A DNA stretch of 49,536 nt, taken from Chitinophagales bacterium. GTDB lineage: Bacteria > Bacteroidota > Bacteroidia > Chitinophagales > LD1. The stretch is from positions 1-49,536 of the forward strand of contig JAEUUZ010000020.1 of the NCBI GenBank assembly GCA_016786765.1, in the 5' to 3' direction. Position numbers and translations under genes: made by a program. The notes beneath the pieces are model-generated. The model was not told the DNA's origin and searched no databases. It saw only the letters and a program-made list of their open reading frames with translations. The first letter of the stretch is position 1; the number at the start of each line of letters is the position of its first letter. Positions 1 to 1,879 of this stretch are shown here, piece after piece.

Positions 1-24
1 CGGGAGTTCGAGCCCCCCTCGCTA
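1..24 (+). pseudogene. 3' remnant of a tRNA-like element (truncated by window edge)
   Basis: The first bases repeat the T-arm and acceptor 3' side of the intact tRNA-Met gene further on (GGGAG, loop TTCGAGC, then a C-run and CTCGCTA). They lack the two bases TC that complete the T-stem in that gene, so the T-stem no longer pairs properly. I read this as the end of another degenerate copy of the array that continues at 229-883. Whatever lies upstream of the window is unknown. Confidence 0.55.
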
Positions 25-136
25 CTCATACATGCAACAGTTTCGAATTTTAAAATAAAACGCATTACTGGAAGCCTCTAAAATGAGGGCAAAAGAAAAA
101 GAATGTTTCAGATTAGCAGAAATTGGATAGAAAATT

Positions 137-144
137 TATATTCG
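137..144 (+). promoter_or_regulatory. Probable -7 element of the tRNA-Met promoter
   Basis: TATATTCG matches the Bacteroidota -7 consensus TAnnTTTG at seven of eight positions and ends ten bases before the mature tRNA 5' end. No convincing -33 TTTG box is visible at the usual spacing. Confidence 0.4.
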
Positions 145-154
145 CACCCTCAAT

Positions 155-228
155 GGCGAGGTAGCTCAGTTGGTTAGAGCGCAGCACTCATAATGCTGAG
201 GTCGGGAGTTCGAGCCTCCCCCTCGCTA
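155..228 (+). tRNA. tRNA-Met (anticodon CAT)
   Basis: A complete cloverleaf can be folded by eye. The acceptor is GGCGAGG with CCTCGCT (one G-T pair), the D-stem GCTC/GAGC has loop AGTTGGTTA, and the anticodon stem CAGCA/TGCTG has loop CTCATAA with CAT at 189-191. A five-base variable loop AGGTC follows, then T-stem GGGAG/CTCCC with loop TTCGAGC and discriminator A. CCA is not encoded; CAA follows. A CAT anticodon can also belong to tRNA-Ile2, in which C34 is modified by TilS, and sequence alone does not separate the two with certainty. This is the only fully intact tRNA in the cluster. The tRNA-like repeats after it share its 3' end. Confidence 0.9.
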
Positions 229-340
229 CAAACACCACCCCAATCATGTTGAATTTTATATTTAACTCATTTAACCAAAGTTGGCTTGAGCGTCCCGCTT
301 GTAAAGCGGGAAGGTCGGAGATTCAAGTCCCCCCTCGCTA
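229..340 (+). repeat. Array unit 1, tRNA-like, anticodon position GTA
   Basis: A short 112-bp unit with a strong hairpin: stem CCCGC/GCGGG (294-298 with 306-310) and seven-base loop TTGTAAA, placing GTA at the anticodon position. The T-loop-like TTCAAGT is flanked by GGAGA and CCCCC, which pair poorly. The spacer has the same ATG as the nuclease gene in unit 4 but no long reading frame. Confidence 0.7.
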
Positions 341-452
341 CAAACACCACCCCAATCATGTTGAATTTTATTTTTAACTCATTTAGCCAATATTGGCTTG
401 AGCGTCCCGCTTCTAAAGCGGGAAGGTCGGAAGTTCAAGTCCCCCCTCGCTA
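341..452 (+). repeat. Array unit 2, tRNA-like, anticodon position CTA
   Basis: The layout is the same as unit 1. The loop is TTCTAAA, so the anticodon position reads CTA, which would pair with the amber codon UAG. The T-arm (GGAAG, TTCAAGT, CCCCC) is not self-complementary at two positions. It is probably not a working tRNA. Confidence 0.7.
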
Positions 453-564
453 CAAACACCACCCCAATCATGTCCAATTTTATTTTTAACTCATTTAGCC
501 AATGTTGGTTAGTGCGTCCCGCTTCTAAAGCGGGAAGGTCGGAAGTTCAAGTCACCAATCGCTA
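453..564 (+). repeat. Array unit 3, tRNA-like, anticodon position CTA
   Basis: The layout is the same as units 1 and 2, again with loop TTCTAAA. Its 3' part has drifted further (CACCAATCGCTA in place of CCCCCCTCGCTA). Its D-loop-like stretch reads GTTGGTTAGTGC, closer to unit 4 than units 1 and 2 are. Confidence 0.7.
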
Positions 565-883
565 CAATTACCACCCCAATCATGTACTTCATTTACATCC
601 TTTATTCTGCATCAGCTAATAAGTATTACGTTGGACATACCGACAATTTAGAAAGAAGATTGTTTGAGCACAATAACGGAATGACTAGGTTTACTTCCAA
701 TATTGCATCTGATTGGAACATAATGTATACTGAAACATTTGAATCAAGAACATTAGCTGCAAAACGAGAAAGGGAAATTAAAGCCAGAAAAAGTAGAGTC
801 TATATTCAATCACTCATTGCCAAAGTTGGTTAGTACGTCCCGCTTTCAAAGCGGGAAGGATGTGAGTTCGAGCACCCTCGCTA
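565..883 (+). repeat. Array unit 4, carries the GIY-YIG gene, anticodon position TCA
   Basis: This long unit begins with the common spacer, holds the GIY-YIG reading frame from the conserved spacer ATG, and ends in the tRNA-like half. The anticodon hairpin is CCCGC/GCGGG with loop TTTCAAA, so the anticodon position reads TCA (pairs with UGA). The T-stem side GTGAG is followed by TTCGAGC and ACCC, which suggests a small deletion from an original CTCAC. The unit ends in CTCGCTA, inside the stop codon of the epimerase on the other strand. Confidence 0.7.
582..833 (+). CDS. Small GIY-YIG nuclease-domain protein
   Basis: An 83-residue single-domain protein of the GIY-YIG nuclease superfamily, in the short YhbQ/UPF0213-like class. 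The GIY equivalent is Phe3-Ile4-Tyr5 and the YIG equivalent Tyr16-Val17-Gly18. An Arg pair (25-26), His30-Asn31 and the family's basic helix KREREIKARK (61-70) follow. Family members cut or bind DNA; the substrate here is unknown. Its ATG lies in the spacer shared by all array units, and its last codons (Lys-Val-Gly-stop) are written in the D-loop-like GTTGGTTAG of the following tRNA-like half. The three shorter units keep the ATG and the last roughly 30 bases before the D-loop but lack the middle. It is probably the coding part of a small repeat element. Confidence 0.75.
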   Translation: MYFIYILYSASANKYYVGHTDNLERRLFEHNNGMTRFTSNIASDWNIMYTETFESRTLAAKREREIKARKSRVYIQSLIAKVG

Positions 884-1879
884 CTTTTTTAAAGTCTTAT
901 ACCACTCCACCGTCCTTCGCACCCCTTCTTCAAAACTAATTTTTTGCGTATAGCCAATCGTTTCTTGTGCTTTTCGGGAACTGAAATGTAAATCGTGGGT
1001 TGATGTATTGACAATATAGGTGCTGATAAGCGGCATTTTGTTTCGCAAAAACAGAAAATAGAAACAATCGATTACAAATGCCACGGGATATAGCAAATAA
1101 GAGGAAATGTTATTGATTTTGGGTTGAATATTGAGCTCTCTGCTAAATGCATGGAGCAGTTGAGGCAAATGGATGTAATCAGGCTTGTAATCGGCTATTA
1201 TGAAAGTATTATTCGCTGCTGAAGGATGAGTGCCAGCACATAATAGACCAAACACAAGGTTTTCAGCATGGACATAACCCAATTTGCTTCTCCCGCCATC
1301 TACATAGCCCATCAATTGTCCTTTGCTTAAACGATCAAGCATTTCTTTACTCGTCATTTTATCGTTCGGACCGTAGATATTGAAACCCGGACGAATAATC
1401 ACTGTTTCAATTTTCGATTGATATTCCAGCATAAGCTGCTCTCCCATTACTTTTGAGGCGGCATACGGACGTGTAAAAGTTCCAATATTGAGCTTTGGTG
1501 TATTTTCATCTGCATCCGAAAAATGCTTAAACCCATGAACGACTAGTGAACTCATAAACACGATTCGTTTTACGCCACAACGTACAGACTCGTCTAAAAC
1601 ATTTTTTGTTCCGTTATAATTCACATTATAGACTTGCTTTCCCCAAGCTACAGAAGGCATTGCGGCTAAGTGATACACTACTTCTATTCCTTGAAAAGCC
1701 TGTTGAAACGTTTCCGGTTTGGTGATGTCGGAATAAACAACTTCAATCGGCAAACCATCAATAGCACCTAATGCAGTACCCGGCAATAATAAGGCACGGA
1801 CTGTATGTCCTTCTTTCACCAACAATTGGGTAAGATGACTACCAATAAAGCCGTTCGCTCCGGTGACCAATACCTTCAT
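881..1879 (-). CDS. NAD-dependent epimerase/dehydratase (extended SDR)
   Basis: A 332-residue extended short-chain dehydrogenase. The nucleotide-binding motif TGANGFIGS is at residues 6-14, HLAA at 70-73, the catalytic serine near 110-111, the YxxxK pair is Tyr139/Lys143 in YAASK, and RPGFNIYGPND lies at 163-173. Such enzymes epimerise, dehydrate or reduce nucleotide sugars or sterol-like substrates; the substrate cannot be told here. Its ATG overlaps the stop of the upstream CPBP gene by one base (TAATG), so the two are translationally coupled, and it is last in the ceramidase operon. Its TAG stop is formed by the CTA in the CTCGCTA end of the tRNA-like array on the opposite strand. Confidence 0.85.
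   Translation of the reverse strand: MKVLVTGANGFIGSHLTQLLVKEGHTVRALLLPGTALGAIDGLPIEVVYSDITKPETFQQAFQGIEVVYHLAAMPSVAWGKQVYNVNYNGTKNVLDESVRCGVKRIVFMSSLVVHGFKHFSDADENTPKLNIGTFTRPYAASKVMGEQLMLEYQSKIETVIIRPGFNIYGPNDKMTSKEMLDRLSKGQLMGYVDGGRSKLGYVHAENLVFGLLCAGTHPSAANNTFIIADYKPDYIHLPQLLHAFSRELNIQPKINNISSYLLYPVAFVIDCFYFLFLRNKMPLISTYIVNTSTHDLHFSSRKAQETIGYTQKISFEEGVRRTVEWYKTLKK

Follow-up and report, generated by a model that had tools for sequence, protein, structure and literature searches.

Results and Discussion

The stretch of DNA analysed here (49,536 nucleotides of a Chitinophagales bacterium, hereafter the window) opens with the end of a repeat array, which occupies positions 1–884 on the forward strand and comprises an intact tRNA-Met, three units of 112 bp and one unit of 319 bp that carries a nuclease gene. 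The intact tRNA-Met(CAT) at 155–229, called by ARAGORN and scoring 71.4 bits against the Rfam tRNA model, is the host gene of the element. It is followed head to tail by the nuclease-free short units 1 (230–341), 2 (342–453) and 3 (454–565), delimited by direct repeats and by alignment to the nuclease gene, and by the full unit 4 (566–884), delimited by direct repeats; the array and the unit lengths given in an initial annotation of this sequence were thereby confirmed. The fragment of a further copy reported there at the very edge is likewise real, as bases 1–25 match the tRNA-Met 3′ end (nt 49–75, 93 %). The window is the whole of its contig, so that the left end of the array is cut by the contig start and this fragment cannot be completed.

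At its 3′ end every unit repeats the 3′ region of tRNA-Met. In the short units this is preceded by a palindrome and by a spacer interpreted as a relic of the start and tail of the nuclease gene, while unit 4 consists of spacer, nuclease gene, palindrome and the displaced 3′ part of the tRNA (857–884), which comprises the T-arm and the acceptor 3′ strand. The gene (582–833) is complete, encodes an 83-residue GIY-YIG protein (PF01541, E=1.8e-14) and runs with its 3′ end into the tRNA copy, its stop codon lying within GTTGGTTAG as originally described. The short units had been taken for deletion derivatives of the nuclease-bearing one. Their spacer head of 19 nt, which keeps the ATG, is identical to that of the nuclease unit at 17 of 19 positions, and their spacer tail of about 20 nt (ACTCATTxxCCAAAGTTGG) aligns to the nuclease gene with local scores of 26, 19 and 24 for units 1, 2 and 3, compared to a shuffle mean of about 14.7. 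In these gap-aware alignments 3, 102 and 7 of 2000 shuffles reached the observed score, which upholds the derivation for units 1 and 3, leaves it weak for unit 2 taken alone, and sets the spacers as a group apart from shuffled sequence.

The initial annotation regarded the tRNA halves as generic and missed a palindrome that each of them contains. We find that the halves are copies of the particular neighbouring tRNA, in which the palindrome replaces the anticodon arm. In all four window copies a perfect palindrome TCCCGCTT-nnn-AAGCGGGA (P; TCCCGC..GCGGGA) lies between tRNA nt 27 and nt 45, located at 293–311 (P1, TCCCGCTTGTAAAGCGGGA), 405–423 (P2, TCCCGCTTCTAAAGCGGGA), 517–535 (P3, also TCCCGCTTCTAAAGCGGGA) and 838–856 (P4, TCCCGCTTTCAAAGCGGGA), in each case in place of tRNA nt 28–44. 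The 16 stem positions of P do not vary across the four units, compared to 23 variable sites among the 71 other shared ones (Fisher p=0.005), and two of the three loop sites vary.

Six residues of the nuclease (Y5, Y16, G18, R26, H30 and E63) are invariant among 20 diverse family members, and the PF01541 domain together with the catalytic Tyr, Arg and Glu places it in the GIY-YIG superfamily. The closest solved relatives of the window protein are UPF0213 (COG2827-like) proteins and the structure-specific nuclease SLX1, followed by I-TevI. No NCBIfam model scored above its cut-off for this family, and phage and plasmid collections yielded no match to it, so that carriage by phages or plasmids was rejected. 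We know of no role for the short GIY-YIG genes of Bacteroidota. The window's genome encodes three of this type, all located directly 3′ of a tRNA.

The arrangement is not a peculiarity of the window. It recurs at many tRNA genes in many genomes, in line with the small tRNA-associated repeat element proposed at the outset, and GIY-YIG genes flanked by such tRNA halves are found in other genomes as well. Family matches were detected in 261 of 395 sampled Bacteroidota genomes and also in metagenome-assembled genomes (MAGs) labelled Melioribacteraceae, Fibrobacter and Patescibacteria; many of the host genomes are MAGs, and unit counts taken from short-read assemblies may be wrong. Two elements (L118, L124) were seen on contigs of MAGs labelled Paraglaciecola and Thioalkalivibrio, which may be misbinned Bacteroidota contigs. 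Among the 83 family loci flanked by 1.4 kb or more on each side, a same-strand tRNA stands beside the gene at 79 and within 120 nt at 65, and none had an opposite-strand tRNA only. Two of the four tRNA-less misses (L036, L138) show a tRNA 3′ copy with a palindrome when inspected by eye. The ordinary COG2827-like GIY-YIG sister clade of the same genomes, in contrast, lacks this linkage, with a tRNA beside 0 of 10 genes.

Altogether 26 anticodons serve as element sites, and the element, about 300 bp long with the nuclease as the sole ORF of the unit, is found on either side of the intact tRNA. In the 81 loci of type A the order is intact tRNA, terminator, nuclease gene, palindrome-bearing tRNA copy and 3′ part, while the 23 loci of type B start with a tRNA 5′ part carrying the palindrome, followed by the nuclease gene and the intact tRNA.

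The nuclease lineages are tied to tRNA identity. On a tree of 132 GIY-YIG proteins the anticodon label changes 50 times, compared to a mean of 77 (minimum 70) after shuffling, with 0 of 500 shuffles as low. For the 86 entries with host-family codes the tRNA changes 43 times (64 shuffled) and the host family 49 times (59 shuffled), making tRNA identity a better correlate of nuclease lineage than host family. As the tree is built from few columns and has many open forks, its single branches are not trustworthy; the shuffles draw on the whole tree. The tRNA coordinates of P are fixed per lineage, as judged from 87 P junctions mapped at 61 loci. P replaces the anticodon arm in elongator Met, Ala and Val ([..27/28]P[45/46..], nt 28–44), nt 26–35 at most Asn loci ([..25]P[36..]), T-loop nt 52–59 at most Asp loci ([..51]P[60..]) and about nt 38–47 in initiator-type Met ([..37/38]P[48/49..]), while it lies in the D-loop at 22|23 in type B Arg(tct) ([..22]P[23..]). 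The palindromes fall into classes (TCCCG, TCCGCC, CCTGYC and others) that change only 12 times on the nuclease tree (27.3 shuffled). Even when labels are shuffled within one tRNA type, 11 changes are observed compared to 19.5, with 0 of 500 shuffles as low. The palindrome class is thus co-inherited with the nuclease.

Such a pairing of a protein lineage with its own palindrome class, along with short non-coding derivatives, is reminiscent of REPIN/RAYT systems, and a nuclease might accordingly recognise and mobilise P itself, with tRNA genes as tolerant docking sites and the tRNA copies as by-products. Co-inheritance inside one tRNA type would fit this reading, as would the conserved stems of P with their drifting loops and flanks and the occurrence of a dispersed palindrome, TCCCGATAGCTATCGGGA, in 27 of 395 genomes, with the nuclease family encoded in 26 of these 27. 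It reaches up to 34 copies per genome (examples are L193–L199 in G037 and L185–L191 in G053). Most copies in G037, however, lie within the loop of a second palindrome (CCCCTCC..GGAGGGG), with no tRNAs nearby, and the exact TCCCGATAGCTATCGGGA is absent from most nuclease-bearing genomes, including that of the window. An origin of P from a dispersed REP was rejected on the grounds that the TCCCGATAGCTATCGGGA copies sit in other hairpins, away from tRNAs. Moreover, docking does not predict a lineage-fixed position of P or nuclease lineages that follow tRNA identity, the protein is a GIY-YIG nuclease and not the REP-associated Y1 (HUH) transposase, and its palindrome is bound to one position in one tRNA. 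We therefore consider a REPIN/RAYT-like system unlikely. A further TCCCGATAGCTATCGGGA was seen within 3 repeats of 403 bp (G059:C44:277407–278413), where it lies inside a GIY-YIG reading frame that carries a stop.

Comparison of close relatives, as the initial annotation had recommended, revealed that both presence and unit number of the element differ between related species. In a well-sampled genus the tRNA-Met beside a START-domain-like gene is present in 30 of 30 species and the element only in G227, and a tRNA-Arg(acg) beside apt occurs in 15 species, of which only G111 has a type B array. The start of that array is the exact start of the tRNA in the other species, with the 5′ part of the host tRNA now a palindrome-bearing fragment and the intact tRNA located behind the nuclease genes. 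Past the type B array of L177 (G111:C23), tRNA-Arg is followed by a phage/plasmid-like primase-type gene, suggesting that this tRNA-Arg has also received an island at its 3′ end. At the tRNA-Ala (GGC) beside an enoyl-CoA hydratase gene, 12 of 31 species have the nuclease, 5 have short 5′ pseudo units only and 14 are clean. At the tRNA-Arg and tRNA-Ala loci with 5′ pseudo-copies, the pseudo-copy starts where the tRNA of the empty loci starts. Homologous alleles of one site therefore exist with and without the gene (1 of 30, 1 of 15 and 12 of 31 species), as homing demands. For the window no empty site of its own was found, as the relatives' homologues of the anchor gene have no adjoining tRNA.

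The terminators at the tRNA-Ala loci further narrow down the insertion point. An element-type terminator (AATACCCAAAC..GTTTGGGTATT and close variants) directly follows the intact tRNA at 10 of 12 occupied and 0 of 19 nuclease-free loci (p=1.5e-6, a descriptive value because the classes were set after viewing the sequences), and at 7 of 12 occupied loci the terminator behind the last displaced half belongs to a type that empty species have. This order, foreign behind the intact tRNA and native behind the displaced half, argues for insertion into the tRNA gene at P, with the element contributing a tRNA 3′ half and a terminator of its own while the host half is displaced beyond P, and it reveals the donor sequence copied next to the site that homing would leave. 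The element thus appears not simply to end at a tRNA 3′ end, an arrangement that the initial annotation had proposed to look for, but to sit inside the tRNA gene itself, whose lost half is regenerated.

Not all loci are this clear. At the tRNA-Met of G227 similarity to the empty relatives breaks off about 47 nt beyond the tRNA, with the tRNA 3′ part and terminator duplicated, and many single-unit loci carry the same terminator twice. Both observations would suit an insertion beside the tRNA, immediately downstream (or upstream) of it, that duplicated 75–95 bp of the target. This reading can neither produce the foreign terminator beside the intact tRNA-Ala and the native one after its displaced half nor account for a copy interrupted by P at a fixed internal tRNA position, making it quite improbable; long target duplication as sole mechanism, suggested by G227, was rejected on the tRNA-Ala terminators. 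Nevertheless, the first and last spacers are alike in G227 and at about half of the single-unit type A loci, which a same-genome donor, later homogenisation or another mechanism might explain. The element-type terminator is also missing from two of the occupied tRNA-Ala loci, L149 and L288, the first terminator of L288 resembling that of its clean relative L287.

The intact tRNA beside the element is identical to its empty relatives at the P site in the Met and Arg loci. The tRNA-Ala genes (n=31) show common variation at 9 of 20 sites within nt 26–45 and at 3 of 55 elsewhere (p=0.0002), while the tRNA-Met genes (n=30) show none at nt 26–45. Close species differ in the anticodon arm of tRNA-Ala (L149, L259–L288), for which at least three haplotypes with paired changes in the stem were distinguished, the remainder of the molecule being nearly invariant. 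Immunity of carriers through a recoded anticodon arm was set aside, as these haplotypes occur in occupied and empty loci alike and are not sorted by occupancy. For the same reason, escape of the stem from a nuclease target is only a suggestion. The nuclease genes at the tRNA-Ala loci are under strong purifying constraint, with a median dN/dS of 0.09 (15 pairs).

Tandem arrays are frequent, often of identical units, such as 5×315 bp at tRNA-Asp (L165) and 5×365 bp at tRNA-Met (L166). Nuclease-free units are frequent as well, and the coexistence of units with and without the gene, which had been conjectured from the window, recurs (window, L003, L008, L041, L058, L200 and the tRNA-Ala loci). L200 (G009:C12:380800–382800) itself has four 111-bp 5′ pseudo-tRNA-Gly units with a D-loop palindrome before tRNA-Gly and no nuclease gene at the locus. 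Some pseudo-tRNAs with a palindromic anticodon arm (L038, L116, L017) are called ‘Stop(tta)’, ‘Met’ or odd tRNAs by ARAGORN, and automatic annotation may report false suppressor tRNAs at such sites.

Identical-unit arrays could point to a dosage device in the manner of SegB, a free-standing, tRNA-linked GIY-YIG nuclease for which tandem tRNA amplification by homologous recombination is described (PMC13096335), with the nuclease amplifying the tRNA region to raise or vary the tRNA supply of the host. Since nearly all amplified copies are defective, their anticodon arm being replaced, and intact duplicates occur at few loci only (e.g. L170), the arrays do not raise tRNA dosage and we regard this role as very improbable. 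Repeats at tRNA genes recombine readily and identical-unit arrays do exist, but an ordinary tandem tRNA duplication beside a host nuclease gene is scarcely credible for a design that is repeated at 26 anticodons in many families, with presence and absence at orthologous sites, foreign terminators and a co-inherited P.

Taken together, these loci probably harbour a mobile element of the homing type, which is intron-less, specific for tRNA genes and able to restore the tRNA it targets. The reading is based on tRNA linkage, lineage specificity, the position and co-inheritance of P, empty sites, foreign-then-native terminators and purifying selection. Homing nucleases in general act by cutting, and the break is then repaired from a copy that carries the element. 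Here, each lineage's short GIY-YIG nuclease would cut the gene of one tRNA species at the fixed internal P site, and repair of this kind, presumably by homologous recombination, would insert about 300 bp at the break. Besides the nuclease gene and P, the insert would contain a replacement for the lost tRNA half, which in type A is the 3′ half together with a terminator and in type B the 5′ half; the side copied in repair likely decides between the types. One intact tRNA would always be regenerated, while the displaced host half would remain beyond P as a dead pseudo-copy whose target site is destroyed by P. Tandem arrays may arise when the regenerated tRNA is targeted again or when repeats recombine unequally; in them, units that lose the nuclease would persist as short pseudo-tRNA units like those of the window. 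P may be the cut site or its immunity mark, and one may reasonably guess that the nuclease recognises it. The palindromic form of this mark is not explained by a homing nuclease alone, and the intact carrier tRNA is not obviously altered at the P site; both points speak against homing, as do the alike spacers and the terminators of L149 and L288.

Among known systems, the free-standing homing endonucleases of T-even phages, above all SegB (PMC13096335), share the GIY-YIG gene beside tRNA genes, the tandem segmental amplification and the absence of an intron. The present element differs from SegB in residing in bacterial chromosomes, in being a single domain of about 83 aa without phage or plasmid match, in its pseudo-tRNA copies with a lineage-specific palindrome and in regenerating a tRNA half. 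Bacterial tRNA genes can also host group I introns with homing nucleases, likewise inserted within the gene and often at the anticodon, but the present element needs no splicing because the intact tRNA is rebuilt beside the insert, and window positions 1–1800 gave no match to a group I or other Rfam intron, the Rfam scan returning only tRNA and one chance match. Integrative elements that target tRNA genes through tyrosine integrases also restore the target gene with a carried tRNA 3′ end. They differ in encoding an integrase, where the only ORF of our unit is the nuclease, and in spanning many kb instead of about 300 bp; the present element in addition uses an internal palindromic site and both sides of the tRNA. 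A published description of the element was not found in the full-text open-access literature. We tentatively suggest that it may constitute an undescribed class of mobile element, made up of a single nuclease in about 300 bp that is devoted to one internal position of one tRNA gene, brings a spare tRNA half, so that the tRNA is never lost to the host, and stamps the displaced half with its cognate palindrome; host tRNAs may counter it through changes in the stem that it targets.

Conclusion

On this reading, most short GIY-YIG genes of the sampled Bacteroidota, present in two thirds of the genomes (261 of 395), would be tied to one design, a minimal selfish element that rebuilds the essential tRNA genes it attacks. 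In the vicinity of tRNA genes, it would account for many pseudo-tRNAs and for odd ‘suppressor’ tRNA calls, and intron-less homing could be studied with it in a simple bacterial system. The family would also supply small nucleases whose predicted tRNA-gene targets differ. Should the stem variation of tRNA-Ala reflect escape, it would illustrate how an essential tRNA evolves in response to a selfish nuclease.
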